From positions 186,001 through 250,000 of the forward strand of contig NZ_CP090371.1 in NCBI RefSeq assembly GCF_021431925.1: a DNA stretch of 64,000 bases. The letters run 5' to 3'. The position numbers and the translations under genes were made by a program. Each line of letters begins with the position of its first letter. Positions within the stretch are counted from its first letter, which is position 1. Shown piece by piece: positions 5,957 to 49,112 of this stretch. The stretch is from Halobaculum sp. CBA1158. GTDB lineage: Archaea > Halobacteriota > Halobacteria > Halobacteriales > Haloferacaceae. The notes beneath the pieces were generated by a model that saw only the letters and a list, made by a program, of their open reading frames with translations, was not told the origin of the DNA and ran no database searches.

Positions 5957-6006
5957 GAAGTCACGCATTGCGCGTGACTTCCCGCCAACCCTCCCTCTTT
6001 GAGGGA
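5957..6006 (+). other. Two hairpins in the 16S leader
   Basis: GAAGTCACGC (5957-5966) pairs perfectly with GCGTGACTTC (5972-5981) over a 5-nt loop. TCCCTC (5992-5997) pairs with GAGGGA (6001-6006) over TTT, ending 3 nt before mature 16S. They probably help leader folding or final 5' trimming. Confidence 0.6.
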
Positions 6007-6009
6007 GAC

Positions 6010-7482
<1,473 letters not shown>

Positions 7483-7537
7483 CAGATCGAGACCGGGCCG
7501 ACGCGCCCGGCTCACCTTCAGCGGTCCGTTCCCGACG

Positions 7538-7568
7538 CCGATCGGGCACCTTCGAACTGTCGAGGCTC
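7538..7568 (+). other. Pre-16S processing stem, 3' arm
   Basis: CCGATCGGG followed by CGAACTGTCGAGGCTC (7553-7568) is complementary to 5898-5929. Together they form the bulge-helix-bulge that releases pre-16S. The arm lies between 16S and tRNA-Ala, as in other haloarchaea. Confidence 0.85.
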
Positions 7569-7590
7569 GCTCGCTCCCCCGAGAGGGGGT

Positions 7591-7662
7591 GGGCCCATAG
7601 CTCAGTGGTAGAGTGCCTCCTTTGCAAGGAGGATGCCCTGGGTTCGAATCCCAGTGGGTCCA
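7591..7662 (+). tRNA. tRNA-Ala (anticodon TGC)
   Basis: A 72-nt tRNA without encoded CCA. The acceptor GGGCCCA pairs with TGGGTCC and includes G3:U70, the alanine identity element. The anticodon loop is TTTGCAA inside stem CCTCC/GGAGG. The T-arm is GGGTTCGAATCCC. Its place in the 16S-23S spacer is standard for haloarchaea. Confidence 0.98.
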
Positions 7663-7878
7663 TGTACTCGTGGTTCACCGCGAACCGTGTGCCTTATACG
7701 GCAGACGGCGATACGGTGAATCCCGACGCAAGACCGATGCACCATTCCGCGAGAGCGGGAATGGGAAGGGTTGAGCACGCTCGCGTGACACCCACGTGAC
7801 GTGCGATGACGACCGTATGTACGTGCAATCCAGACGTCCACTGGACCCGTTCACTGGGTCACAGTGTACCATCAGTCA
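7663..7878 (+). other. tRNA-Ala to 23S spacer with 5' arm of 23S processing stem
   Basis: GTACGTGCAATCCAG (7819-7833) and TGGACCC (7842-7848) pair with 10830-10844 and 10815-10821 beyond the 23S, forming its bulge-helix-bulge. Before this lies the hairpin CCATTCC/GGAATGG (7742-7748/7758-7764). A TATA-like CCTTATACGG near 7691 resembles the upstream rRNA promoters and could be an internal promoter. No protein gene is credible here. Confidence 0.75.
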
Positions 7879-10795
<2,917 letters not shown>

Positions 10796-43378: not shown

Positions 43379-44368
43379 TCAGGGTACCCGCCCGAACAGG
43401 TCGCGATTGACCGCCTCGTACTCGAGCGTTCCCCGTTCGAGTTGCGTTCGCCTCGTCTCCGCCCACTCCGACAGCGTCGCGTCCGCGACCGCGCCCGATT
43501 CGCGAACCGACGCGACCACCGTGTCGAGGACCGTCTCCAGGAAGGTCGCCTCGTCGGCCGGGTAGCCGTCCCCCTCCTCGCTCGCCCCCTCGCCCGCCAC
43601 GTCGCCCGCGACGACCCAGTCGGCGCGCGCGTCGACCGCCGGCGGCGACCCCGCCGCCCGGAGCCGTTCGACCAGCAGCGTCGCCGCCCGTCCCCGATTC
43701 CGCATCGTCCCGTGGAAGGCGTCGATCACGGCGTCGTCCGCGGGGTGGTCGGGCGCGAACCGCGTCTCGCCGTCGAAGGTGAGCGGCAGGTGATACCAGC
43801 CCTCCGGCGCGGCCGAGCGGAGCAGGGCGAGCACGTCCTCGGGGGCCAGCAGGTCCGCGAACGACCGAGCGACGACGCCGTCGAACGGCTCTTCGCTCCC
43901 GTCCTCTGCGACCGCGCGGGCGTCGTCGACCCGGAAGCGGACCCGCAGGGCGGCGTCGCGGTCGCGGTGACCGATCCGAACTCCGGTACCGCCCGCCGTC
44001 TCACCTCCCTCGCTCACCGCGGTCGAGTCGACCGCGTATCCGGCCTCGGCCGCCTCCTCGCACAGCCGCGCTCGGCCGGCCGCGAGCGCGCGCTCGTCGG
44101 TGTCGACGGCGACCCACTCGCCGAGGGGGAGCGCGCCGTCGGCGACGAGGCGACGGAGCACCCCGCAGGTGCCGGCACCGGCTTCGAGCACGCGGACGCC
44201 GCGGTCCCCATGGTCGTCATGGCCGCCGTGGTCGCCCTCGTGCCTCCGATCAGTCCCTCGATCGCCCCCGACCAGCGCCGACCGGAAGGCCGCGGTCGCG
44301 GCGTCGCTGTGGGCGCGGTCGTCGACCGTGCGCGCGGCCTCGAGGTACGCCACGTCGTCACCCTCCAT
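43379..44368 (-). CDS. Class I SAM-dependent methyltransferase
   Basis: A 329-residue methyltransferase. Motif I is VRVLEAGAGTCGVLRRLVAD, with WVAVDTDERALAAGRARL as motif II. RSFADLLAPEDVLALLR follows as a later motif. Before motif I is a His/Asp-rich insertion (HEGDHGGHDDHGDRG) that could bind metal. The substrate is unknown. It is the third gene of an overlapping unit after the pterin-synthase-like and GT4 genes: its start overlaps the GT4 stop by 11 bp. This suggests it methylates the product of those two. Confidence 0.82.
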   Translation of the reverse strand: MEGDDVAYLEAARTVDDRAHSDAATAAFRSALVGGDRGTDRRHEGDHGGHDDHGDRGVRVLEAGAGTCGVLRRLVADGALPLGEWVAVDTDERALAAGRARLCEEAAEAGYAVDSTAVSEGGETAGGTGVRIGHRDRDAALRVRFRVDDARAVAEDGSEEPFDGVVARSFADLLAPEDVLALLRSAAPEGWYHLPLTFDGETRFAPDHPADDAVIDAFHGTMRNRGRAATLLVERLRAAGSPPAVDARADWVVAGDVAGEGASEEGDGYPADEATFLETVLDTVVASVRESGAVADATLSEWAETRRTQLERGTLEYEAVNRDLFGRVP

Positions 44369-45599
44369 CGGCCACCTCCGCGAGGAACCCGGCGACGCCG
44401 GCGACCGTGTCGCCCCACGGGGGGTGGGACGCGAAGCGGTCGAGCGCGGCCGCGCCCATCCGCGCCAGGGCGTCGCGGTCGGTCGCGAGCGTCGCGAGCG
44501 CGTCGCGGACGCCGGCCACGTCGCCCGGATCGACGAGGAACCCGGTCTCGCCGTCGGCGACGACCGAGGACGCCCCGCCGGCCGCCGAAGCCACCGCCGG
44601 CAGGCCGAATCCCATCCCCTCCAGATACGCCATCCCGAACCCCTCGTACGTCGAGGGGACCGCGAGCGCGTGCGACTCGCGCAGCACCGCGGCGAGGTCG
44701 GGCGTCGACAGCCGCCCGCGAAACGACACGCGGTCGGCGACGCCCAGATCTCCCGCGAGCGCCCGGACCCGGCGGCGGTGTTCGGGGTTCGGTTCGGGGC
44801 CGACGACGGCGAGCCGCCAGTCGGGGACGGTCGTCTCGCGGTCGCTGTCGCGGTCGCGGTCGGCGTCGCGGTCGCTGTCGCGGTCGGCGTCGCGGTCGCT
44901 GTCGCGGTCGGCGTCGCTCTCGCGGGCACAGCACGCGCCCTCCTCGTCGAGCCCGGCGAGCGCCTGCAGCAGCGTCCCGTGTCCCTTTCGGGGGACGAGC
45001 GAGCCGAGCGCGACGACGCGGAACGGCGATTCTCCCGCCCGCCGAGTCACGTCGGCCGCCGTCACGTCCGGGTCGAACTGGTCGGCCGGCGGCGGCGCGA
45101 CGTGGGTCGGCACGTCGTCGCCGACGAGCGCCGTCACGTCACGCGCGGTCGTATCGCTCACGCAGACGGCCGCCGAACACCCCCGTAGGAACAGCCGCTC
45201 CAGTCGCGCGGCGACGGGCGCGAGGCGACCGCCCTCCGCGTGCCGGAGGTGATGCACCAGCGCCACGGCCGGCGTCCCCCCGCGGCGGAGTCGGCGGACG
45301 AGCCCCCACGCTCCGGGGTGTGCCAGCTCGTCGACGACCACGGCGTCGGCCTCGCGAAGGCCCGTGGGGATTCCCGTCGCGAGCCCCGGGGCGTCGAGGA
45401 CGCCGATGGGATAGCGACGCCACGGCACAGAGAACGCTCGAACGGACGCGCCGGCCGCGCGCAGGCCGGCGACGAGTCGGCGGTCGTAGCGAAACCCTCC
45501 GGAGGTGGTGTCGGGGTCGCCCGGCACGACGAGCGCGACCGTGAGGCCGTCGTAGGCGGCGGAGTCGCCTGCTGTCCCGCGAGACGGCGACTCAGCCAT
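44358..45599 (-). CDS. GT4-family glycosyltransferase
   Basis: A 413-residue GT-B glycosyltransferase. Conserved are FRYDRRLVAGLRAAGASVRA in the N-lobe and, in the C-lobe, VALGSLVPRKGHGTLLQALA, VSFRGRLSTPDLAAVL and the nucleotide-sugar EX7E motif in YEGFGMAYLEGMGFGLPAVA. A tandem DSDRDADR insertion of about 25 residues follows VALGSLV (about 44827-44932), coded by a GCGGTC hexamer repeat. It likely lies in a surface loop. Middle gene of the unit with overlaps on both sides. Confidence 0.87.
   Translation of the reverse strand: MAESPSRGTAGDSAAYDGLTVALVVPGDPDTTSGGFRYDRRLVAGLRAAGASVRAFSVPWRRYPIGVLDAPGLATGIPTGLREADAVVVDELAHPGAWGLVRRLRRGGTPAVALVHHLRHAEGGRLAPVAARLERLFLRGCSAAVCVSDTTARDVTALVGDDVPTHVAPPPADQFDPDVTAADVTRRAGESPFRVVALGSLVPRKGHGTLLQALAGLDEEGACCARESDADRDSDRDADRDSDRDADRDRDSDRETTVPDWRLAVVGPEPNPEHRRRVRALAGDLGVADRVSFRGRLSTPDLAAVLRESHALAVPSTYEGFGMAYLEGMGFGLPAVASAAGGASSVVADGETGFLVDPGDVAGVRDALATLATDRDALARMGAAALDRFASHPPWGDTVAGVAGFLAEVADGG
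44827..44932. repeat. Hexanucleotide repeat inside the glycosyltransferase gene
   Basis: TCGCGGTCGCTG and TCGCGGTCGGCG units of 12 nt alternate about eight times. On the coding strand they encode Asp-Ser-Asp-Arg/Asp-Ala-Asp-Arg. All changes are multiples of 3 nt so the frame stays open. Slippage could vary the loop length. Confidence 0.8.
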
Positions 45600-46029
45600 C
45601 GCCGCCCGTTTCGCGGGCGTCCTCGGCGGCGTCGGAGTCGCCGGCGGCGGCGATCGACCCCTCGTAGCCCGCGGCGGCCTCGTCGTCCTCCCAGACGGTG
45701 ACGCGCAGCGTCTCGGCGGGACCGTCGGCGGCCGCCGGGGCGAGTCGGTCGTGGAGGACGCGCGCGAACCGCTCGACGCTGGGATTGTACCCTTCGAACT
45801 CGGGCAGGTCGTTCAGCGTCGCGTCGCGGTAGCGTCCCTCGGCGTCGTCGAGGGCGTCGCGCACGTCGTCGATGTTGACCAGGTAGTCGTACTCGGTGAG
45901 CGACTCGCCGGCGAAGGTGGCCTCCACCGAGAACACGTGCGAGTGGAGGGTTCCCTCGGGACCGGGATCGGGAACCGTGAGGTAGTGCTGTGCGACGAAC
46001 TGTCGTGTGACGGTCGTGCGGTATGTCAT
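45592..46029 (-). CDS. QueD/PTPS-fold pterin-binding protein with altered active site
   Basis: A 145-residue protein of the 6-pyruvoyl/6-carboxytetrahydropterin synthase fold. Zinc ligands are kept: His15 in RQFVAQHYL, and His29 and His31 in TLHSHVF. The pterin-anchoring Glu is Glu114 in VTVWEDDE. The catalytic Cys position (CxxxHGH in QueD) is Glu25 (EGTLHSH), as in PTPS-III enzymes. The Asp-His pair of the QueD triad is replaced by Arg68-Asp69. It overlaps the GT4 gene by 8 bp. The role is more likely a modified pterin step than queuosine synthesis. Confidence 0.8.
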   Translation of the reverse strand: MTYRTTVTRQFVAQHYLTVPDPGPEGTLHSHVFSVEATFAGESLTEYDYLVNIDDVRDALDDAEGRYRDATLNDLPEFEGYNPSVERFARVLHDRLAPAAADGPAETLRVTVWEDDEAAAGYEGSIAAAGDSDAAEDARETGGDG

Positions 46030-46196: not shown

Positions 46197-46754
46197 TTAT
46201 CCGACGAACTCCTCGACGACCGGCGGGAGTCGACGGCGGACGAGCGCGTACGCGACGCCGAGGGCGACGCAGGCGGCCGCGATCGCCGGGAGCGGTCGCG
46301 GGTAGTACGCCACGACCGGCACCGCGAGCACGGCGGTCGCGGCGGCGTCCTCGGGAGCGCCGTCGTATCGGATCCGGTAGCGCGGTCGGATCCACCGCCC
46401 GTGAAGGTGGTCGAACACCGCCTCCGAGGAGGTCCGTTCCCACGGGCGTATCTCGTCGCCCGCGCCGAGTGCGTCCGTCCCGGCGTGAACGGCGAACGAG
46501 GCGGCGAACGTCGCCGCCGACACGGTCGAGAGCGTCGGGACGGCGACCGCGACGGCGACGGCCGGGACTGCGAGCGCCCACCCCAGGACAGGGAAATGGA
46601 GCGTCCGGCGGTGGCGGCCGACGAACAGGTCGACGTCGGGCACCAGCCCTCCGACCACCCCGGCGAGCGCGGCCGGCACGGCCAACTCGGGCGCGAGCGC
46701 GACGACCGGGGCGGCGACCAGCGCGCCGACCAGCGCGTGCGTGAACGCCATCAT
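46197..46754 (-). CDS. DUF457 (YdjM-like) metal-dependent hydrolase family membrane protein
   Basis: A 185-residue protein with about four or five helices. The N-terminal MAFTHALVGALVAAPVVAL carries the family His, GLVPDVDLFVGRHRRTLHFP has the Asp/His set, and FAVHAGTDALGAGDEIRPWE is the later DUF457 motif. Such proteins are membrane-bound putative metal-dependent hydrolases. Substrate unknown. The initiator may be the second Met (46751). Confidence 0.82.
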   Translation of the reverse strand: MMAFTHALVGALVAAPVVALAPELAVPAALAGVVGGLVPDVDLFVGRHRRTLHFPVLGWALAVPAVAVAVAVPTLSTVSAATFAASFAVHAGTDALGAGDEIRPWERTSSEAVFDHLHGRWIRPRYRIRYDGAPEDAAATAVLAVPVVAYYPRPLPAIAAACVALGVAYALVRRRLPPVVEEFVG

Positions 46755-46782: not shown

Positions 46783-47157
46783 TTAGGACTCCCGGCGGTA
46801 CAGCACGACGAGCACCGCGATCAGCGCCACCTGCACCACCTTGTCGGCGATCCCGGTCGCGCCGAACTCCGGGGCGTTCGCGACGTACCACAGCGGGATC
46901 TGCCCGGCGGTGAATGGGATCCCGAGCAGGTAGAACAGCCGCCGTCGATATTCGAGCAGCACCGCCGCGATGCCGCCGAGGAAGCCGACGCCGGCGACGA
47001 GGAACGCGACGGCCATCCCCGCCTCCGACCGGAACGCCCACGCGAGCCACAGGTGGATGACGCCGGTGACGGCCGACAGCGCGACCCCCGCCCAATGGAG
47101 TCCTGTCAGCGAGTCCGTCTGCAGCGTGCTACCGCCAGGCGCGGTTTGGGTGCTCAT
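46783..47157 (-). CDS. Four-helix membrane protein (DUF7475-like)
   Basis: A 124-residue membrane protein. Helices: LHWAGVALSAVTGVIHLWLA, AGMAVAFLVAGVGFLGGIAA, RRLFYLLGIPFTAGQIPLWY and VVQVALIAVLVVLYR. It resembles a haloarchaeal membrane family of unknown function. The ATG at 47157 is chosen because the N-terminus then starts directly before the first helix. It lies 28 bp upstream of the DUF457 gene on the same strand, so both may be co-transcribed. Confidence 0.75.
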   Translation of the reverse strand: MSTQTAPGGSTLQTDSLTGLHWAGVALSAVTGVIHLWLAWAFRSEAGMAVAFLVAGVGFLGGIAAVLLEYRRRLFYLLGIPFTAGQIPLWYVANAPEFGATGIADKVVQVALIAVLVVLYRRES

Positions 47158-47258
47158 GGCCGTGTACTGGGGCGGAATCCTGTTAAAAACTCGCGTCGCG
47201 GTGGCTCCTCGGCCCGCTCGGTCGCGGGGCCTCTCGCGGACGCCGACTGACCCCGTGC

Positions 47259-48479: not shown

Positions 48480-49112
48480 TCAGCCCCACGGGTGGCCGTT
48501 CGGCGCGTCGGGCCACAGCGGGTACCAGTACTCCTTGTCGGACTCGATACCGAGTTCGCCGTCGAGCACGGACTCCAGTTTGAACTCGATCCTGCTGTCG
48601 CGGTCGTCGGTGCCCGTCGGCGCGAACGGGTAGTACGCGCCGCGGCGGAACGAGTACACCCAGTACGCGCGGTCGCCGTCGCCGGCGCAGCCGCTTCCGC
48701 CGCCAGACCGCTCGAACCCGAATACGGCCGCCAGCAGCCGCGAACCGTAGCCGCGCTCGACGAACTCGTCCGCCGCGAAGTGGACGGAGGTGACCAGGTC
48801 CTCGGGGTCGTCGTCGGCGAGGACGACCCACTGGTAGCCGTAGTCGTCCGCGTGTCGACGGAACTCGGTGCCGGTCTCCTCCTCGCCGGCGTCGAGGATC
48901 GATTCGACGGCGTCGACCGTCTCGGCGAAGTCTGTGGAGTCGACCGAGGAGAAACACAGCGCCGCCTCGCCGACCGAGCGGAAGTCGAGATCCGCCTCCA
49001 TCGTGACGTAGGCGGTGCTCATCCCGAAGAGGTCCTCGGGGTCGGCGTCGCTGACGGCGTCGGTCTCCGCGCGGGAGCCGAGCATCGACCGGAGTGTGTC
49101 GAGAATGCCCAT
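48480..49112 (-). CDS. PspAB-like (PspA-associated) protein
   Basis: A 210-residue soluble protein matching the haloarchaeal PspA-associated family PspAB, as far as I recall it. Signatures are SDADPEDLFGMSTAYVTMEA, YGYQWVVLADDDPEDLVTSV, FVERGYGSRLLAAVFGFERS and AYWVYSFRRGAYYPFAP. The family accompanies PspA and HtpX in membrane stress control. Here HtpX is 800 bp away on the same strand with a LURP-one gene between. Assignment is by memory of the family pattern. Confidence 0.72.
   Translation of the reverse strand: MGILDTLRSMLGSRAETDAVSDADPEDLFGMSTAYVTMEADLDFRSVGEAALCFSSVDSTDFAETVDAVESILDAGEEETGTEFRRHADDYGYQWVVLADDDPEDLVTSVHFAADEFVERGYGSRLLAAVFGFERSGGGSGCAGDGDRAYWVYSFRRGAYYPFAPTGTDDRDSRIEFKLESVLDGELGIESDKEYWYPLWPDAPNGHPWG

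Follow-up and report, generated by a model that had tools for sequence, protein, structure and literature searches.

The structurally characterised protein closest to the one described here is SCO6650, a triad-less Streptomyces relative whose structure (3d7j) was solved in 2008; the structure paper reportedly found neither zinc nor triad, and no activity of the PTPS kind. The subfamilies are told apart by short motifs: CxxxHGH in QueD (PTPS-I), CxxxxxHGH in PTPS-II (BH4), ExxHGH in PTPS-III, where the Glu stands three residues before the first His (PMC5041015), and FGPAQ in PTPS-IV, whose neighbours carry PF00925 and RibD_C (PMC5445326). AGeNNT names the PF00925 neighbour FolE2, which is another reading of that partner (PMC5445326), and a 2016 review of COG0720, referring to unpublished work, assigns PTPS-IV a part in the synthesis of F420 (PMC5041015). 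In the literature, we found no relevant paper on SCO6650, SCO6655, phosphohalopterin or the six-gene combination.

An overlapping gene unit in Halobaculum

We compare with these systems a locus of Halobaculum sp. CBA1158, contained in a window of 64,000 nucleotides (NZ_CP090371.1, positions 186,001 to 250,000), with the following features.

43379..44368, minus strand: class I SAM-dependent methyltransferase (MT), 329 aa, assigned by fold, with Pfam scores just below cut-offs
44358..45599, minus strand: GT4-family glycosyltransferase, 413 aa (PF00534, E 1e-30), in the same position in congeners
44841..44925, minus strand: 24-bp tandem repeat of 3.5 copies, coding for an Asp/Arg insert in the GT4
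45592..46029, minus strand: PTPS-like T-fold protein, 145 aa (PF01242, E 1.3e-24; alignment, tree and AlphaFold2 model)
46197..46754, minus strand: YdjM-like membrane protein (PF04307, E 3.5e-4, below cut-off), in the same place in four congeners
46783..47217, minus strand: DUF7475 small membrane protein (PF24287; congeners and neighbourhood counts)

The PTPS-like and GT4 genes overlap by 8 bp and the GT4 and MT genes by 11 bp, all three on the minus strand, and the coordinates, start codons and overlaps given for them in the original prediction are right. Both overlaps are kept exactly in two congeners; a third keeps the 11-bp overlap, with its PTPS-GT4 junction 48 bp apart at a start codon chosen by script. 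Values of dN/dS against congeners (PTPS 0.15-0.32, GT4 0.29-0.34, MT 0.27-0.35) indicate that the compared genes are under purifying selection and, since the overlaps are conserved as well, chance gene overlap was ruled out. Furthermore, the order RadA-DUF7475-YdjM-like-PTPS-GT4-MT, facing SufU/SufS, is kept in four same-genus genomes, and a gap of 167 bp separates the YdjM-like gene from the PTPS gene. As judged from gene arrangement, the YdjM-like gene is probably a member of the PTPS-GT4-MT transcription unit, and so, probably, is the DUF7475 gene. A gene for PspAB (PspA-associated protein B) lies at window positions 48480-49112, upstream of radA. The Asp/Arg-rich insert in the GT4 is of low complexity (DRDADRDS-type), and the protein, at 413 aa, is longer than its counterparts in three congeners (361-376 aa). 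The MT scores only just under the Pfam cut-offs, has the predicted fold of a class I SAM methyltransferase and shows the conserved features TFDG.T.F.P and H219/W302/R306.

Active site and family placement

In the PTPS-like protein, alignment places the zinc ligands at H15, H29 and H31 and the pterin-anchor position at E114, with E25 where E. coli QueD, the reference sequence, has its catalytic Cys and R68-D69 where it has the Asp-His pair, as had been proposed at the outset. Across 42 haloarchaeal homologues, ten residues (E25, H29, S30, D69, N73, N82, P83, S84, E86 and E114) never vary, H15 and H31 are kept in 40/42 and R68 in 32/42, and the Cys/Asp/His triad is replaced in all homologues aligned. 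At residue 52 (45874-45876) the window protein has Asn, whereas Asp is found in 41/42 haloarchaeal homologues and in each of the four congeners. The AlphaFold2 model, built on an alignment including one Streptomyces row, has a mean pLDDT of 91; its best PDB match is 3d7j (SCO6650), followed by QueD.

The haloarchaeal motif is ExxxHSH, with E25 at -4 from the first His and Gly26 at -3 in 37/42. It is neither the CxxxHGH of PTPS-I, where the protein scores 38.3 bits against a TIGR03367 cut-off of 89.25, nor the motif of PTPS-II. PTPS-III is similar in having a Glu close to the His pair, but here the Glu stands one position earlier than in ExxHGH and the Gly of HGH is replaced by Ser; PTPS-III identity was thus rejected, and the analogy with PTPS-III enzymes drawn in the original prediction fails. 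The FGPAQ signature is found in bacterial members, the haloarchaeal consensus being PGPEG. In an IQ-TREE phylogeny, haloarchaeal and bacterial FGPAQ proteins form one clade with 99/96 support, which excludes the QueD proteins of haloarchaea and E. coli as well as rat PTPS, and a haloarchaea-only profile matches 3d7j at 6e-17 over the full length versus QueD at 1.4e-10 over part of it. Since the haloarchaeal proteins lack FGPAQ, keep all three zinc His residues and carry an R-D pair (R68 mostly, D69 always), they are, by sequence, a sister branch of PTPS-IV and not PTPS-IV proper, and the altered zinc/Glu-Asp site predicted for this branch is a new point. The original prediction knew of no such pathway described in halophilic archaea; the unit is a conserved orphan, but its family, sister to PTPS-IV, has already been named in the COG0720 literature. 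The Halobaculum genome encodes QueC (C1:1762216) but no QueD-type PF01242 protein, and a QueD-type protein is likewise missing from about half of the haloarchaea with a PTPS-IV-like protein.

Gene neighbourhoods and genome-wide co-retention

Within the stretches fetched around 42 haloarchaeal PTPS loci, an MT is encoded in 37, the dehydrogenase discussed below in 36, a CDP-alcohol phosphotransferase in 26, DUF7475 in 21, GCH III (identified by PF05165, E 5.6e-88) in 17, GfoAKR in 9, PAP2 in 5 and a creatininase-like protein in 2. A GT4 gene occurs in 32/42, directly downstream of PTPS in 31 of them, while 10/42 have none nearby; the MT is directly downstream in 10. Because a GT4 is absent near PTPS in about a quarter of the loci, glycosylation may not be a core step. 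The order dehydrogenase-PTPS-(GT4)-MT recurs in annotated bacterial records of Streptomyces, Microbacterium, Thiodictyon and Methylosinus and, with gaps, in Palleronia, Neorhizobium and Rhodobacteraceae; bacterial loci variously add RibD, CDP-alcohol phosphotransferase, GCH II and creatininase. Seven cassette families, CDP-alcohol phosphotransferase included, are present in 68/68 full-length Streptomyces loci, and the Microbacterium locus encodes a lysylphosphatidylglycerol-synthase-type membrane protein. RibD near PTPS was seen only in bacteria, and neither PF00925 GTP cyclohydrolase II nor RibD_C was found in the Halobaculum window. Elsewhere in the Halobaculum genome, a gene for a CDP-alcohol phosphotransferase is found at 1.09 Mb, next to one for a Gfo/Idh-aldo-keto reductase fusion (C1:1086000-1098000, at about 5977-9005 of that stretch); proteins of both families are also encoded near haloarchaeal PTPS loci and may belong to the pathway.

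The sample for co-retention comprised 117 haloarchaeal genomes, 66 with the PTPS-like gene and 51 without. A dehydrogenase orthologue, defined by a best E no higher than 1e-40, is present in 64/66 of the former and 0/51 of the latter (Fisher p 3e-31, which ignores kinship and is indicative only), and the two exceptions are assemblies 71% and 78% complete; for the MT family the counts are 61/66 and 0/51. At least 15 genomes have one partner gene, or both, over 25 kb from PTPS or on a different contig, so linkage alone does not explain the co-retention, and in Halobaculum sp. CBA1158 the dehydrogenase gene is 453 kb from PTPS. Genomes acquire and lose the PTPS, dehydrogenase and MT families as a set, and this genome-wide co-retention is a new point. 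The co-occurrence of the three families that the original prediction proposed to look for is thus borne out by the adjoining GT4 in most loci and by the MT counts, and the three-gene unit is real, conserved and co-retained, but it is part of something larger, in which the obligately co-occurring BchC-like dehydrogenase had been missed. About half of the haloarchaeal genomes have the cassette, as do several groups of bacteria, and its genes are retained together even where they lie scattered.

The dehydrogenase is nearest to BchC (E 6.6e-21), the bacteriochlorophyllide dehydrogenase, whose substrate is a ring with a hydroxyethyl side chain that it oxidises, but it is not a BchC, as its score of 74.7 falls below the cut-off of 291. 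By comparison with a LADH reference sequence, the catalytic zinc ligands Cys46 and His67 are absent in haloarchaea, with Ser in 33/34 and Tyr in 34/34, and the bacterial branch likewise has Ser and Tyr at the two positions. A BchC-like partner devoid of catalytic zinc ligands is also a new point. The MDR dehydrogenase at L162:8535-9614 is annotated as zinc-binding elsewhere, yet it is without both catalytic zinc ligands.

Proposed precursor and product, and competing readings

FAPy is the product of GCH III. In the annotated PTPS neighbourhoods, GTP cyclohydrolase I was not recognised, only GCH III (haloarchaea) or GCH II (bacteria). In the GCH II of the Streptomyces cluster, Met replaces the Tyr105 of E. 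coli in 75/75, a change reported to make SCO6655 stop at FAPy; Tyr is retained in the GCH II of Palleronia. The match of the bacterial RibD-like protein to the model for the archaeal diaminopyrimidine reductase (E 2.5e-31) falls below the cut-off. GCH III, the FAPy-type GCH II and the RibD-like partners thus point to a diaminopyrimidine, and a precursor from the riboflavin branch appears more likely than dihydroneopterin triphosphate. On the other hand, GCH III is single-copy in the Halobaculum genome (at 2.09 Mb, 1.86 Mb from PTPS) and haloarchaeal arfA is required for riboflavin (PMC8305020), so that proximity of GCH III to PTPS elsewhere may reflect flavin/F420 supply only.

From the protein families, the fold, the conserved residues, gene order and co-retention, we infer a precursor, a set of reactions, their order and a product. 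The operon would be the split haloarchaeal form of a conserved orphan cassette, MDR dehydrogenase - PTPS-IV-like - (GT4) - MT, often with a CDP-alcohol phosphotransferase, acting on a FAPy-derived diaminopyrimidine, and we regard the chances of this proposal as evenly balanced. GTP would be opened to the formamidopyrimidine FAPy by GCH III in haloarchaea or by the FAPy-type GCH II in Streptomyces, deformylated by a creatininase/ArfB-like enzyme and reduced by a RibD/ArfC-like enzyme to the diaminopyrimidine ribosyl/ribityl intermediate common to riboflavin and Fo. The PTPS-IV-like protein would hold a pteridine-like substrate via E114, with the haloarchaeal zinc and the E25/D69 pair carrying out a side-chain or ring-forming step, and the BchC-like, zinc-ligand-less dehydrogenase would oxidise or reduce a hydroxyalkyl side chain. 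The MT would then cap the molecule, GT4, where present, would glycosylate it, and the CDP-alcohol phosphotransferase may tie the product to a membrane lipid. What the gene set makes is probably a small molecule not yet discovered, built from the GTP-derived precursor that riboflavin also has; this product is probably pteridine-like and methylated, with a sugar added in most members. A glycosylated, methylated pterin was a fair guess as far as a modified pterin-like product goes, but the cyclohydrolases point to a riboflavin-type diaminopyrimidine and GT4 is missing in about a quarter of loci. A broader and tentative version, which we consider rather improbable as a whole, is that haloarchaea, actinobacteria and proteobacteria share one horizontally spread pathway leading from FAPy to a new class of pteridine or lumazine that is methylated, glycosylated and perhaps anchored in the membrane; the zinc/Glu-Asp catalytic centre of the haloarchaeal enzyme would then be new, and the bacterial enzyme would have lost the third zinc ligand.

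Were the substrate instead a folate-branch dihydroneopterin (tri)phosphate supplied by MptA/FolE, the product would be a true pterin, glycosylated by GT4 and methylated by the MT, like cyanopterin or solfapterin. The retained pterin-anchor Glu and zinc ligands and the GT4 adjoining PTPS in 31/42 loci would suit such a route, and pterins carrying a sugar are known from cyanobacteria and, in the form of solfapterin, from Sulfolobus (cited in PMC3546692); we nonetheless consider it unlikely, as the triad for dihydroneopterin triphosphate side-chain chemistry is replaced in all homologues and the annotated neighbourhoods show GCH III, GCH II and RibD-type reductases, with GTP cyclohydrolase I not recognised. 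It is quite unlikely, too, that the cassette serves to make a headgroup linked to a lipid or to the cell surface, with the CDP-alcohol phosphotransferase, GT4, PAP2 and membrane proteins at its core and the PTPS-like protein only supplying or binding a small precursor. The frequency of the CDP-alcohol phosphotransferase (26/42 haloarchaeal and 68/68 full-length Streptomyces loci), DUF7475 (21/42) and PAP2 (5/42), the YdjM-like and DUF7475 membrane proteins upstream in the window and the lysylphosphatidylglycerol-synthase-type protein of Microbacterium argue for such a role, but the CDP-alcohol phosphotransferase is unlinked in 16/42 loci.

A supporting role for the PTPS-IV-like protein in F420/Fo biosynthesis seems improbable to us. 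Every one of the 97 good-quality haloarchaeal genomes has CofD but only 57/97 have a PTPS-IV-like protein, so the latter cannot be obligatory for F420, and the F420 pathway is not known to need a glycosyltransferase; these points stand against the shared FAPy precursor, the GCH III neighbours and the statement on PTPS-IV made without data in the 2016 review (PMC5041015). Finally, the protein is the sole PF01242 match in its own genome, where QueC is present, and might thus be that genome's QueD, feeding archaeosine synthesis. It has 38 bits against the QueD cut-off of 89 and no catalytic Cys, and there is no trade-off with QueD-type proteins, found in 34/66 genomes with PTPS-IV-like proteins (counted as a second PF01242 protein) and in 30/51 without (counted as at least one; p 0.46). 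Replacement of QueD was thus rejected, and we hold this identity to be very improbable. The significance lies in treating as one pathway a set of proteins whose default annotations include queuosine enzyme and alcohol dehydrogenase; with its unusual active site and its zinc-ligand-less dehydrogenase, such a pathway turns the long-standing orphan PTPS-IV subfamily into a testable problem.

Compared with known systems, the PTPS-like protein has in common with QueD (PTPS-I, E. coli 4ntk) the T-fold, the zinc-site His residues and the Glu anchor, but Cys is replaced by Glu and Asp-His by Arg-Asp, and the gene is unlinked to QueC/QueE. The cyanobacterial pteridine glycosyltransferases (PgtA/BGluT) share the concept of a glycosylated pteridine, a likeness of concept and not of sequence, and the precursor inferred here differs from theirs. 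SCO6650 and PTPS-IV are similar to the haloarchaeal branch in having no catalytic Cys or Asp-His and in keeping the Glu anchor, and their genes share as neighbours the dehydrogenase, GT4, MT and CDP-alcohol phosphotransferase. The third zinc ligand, on the other hand, is His in the haloarchaeal branch and Ala in the sampled bacterial PTPS-IV, and the two branches may thus not catalyse the same reaction. The D69 position is Tyr and the R68 position Asn, Asp or Ala in bacterial PTPS-IV, and the cyclohydrolase neighbour is GCH III in the haloarchaeal branch whereas it is GCH II in the bacterial one.
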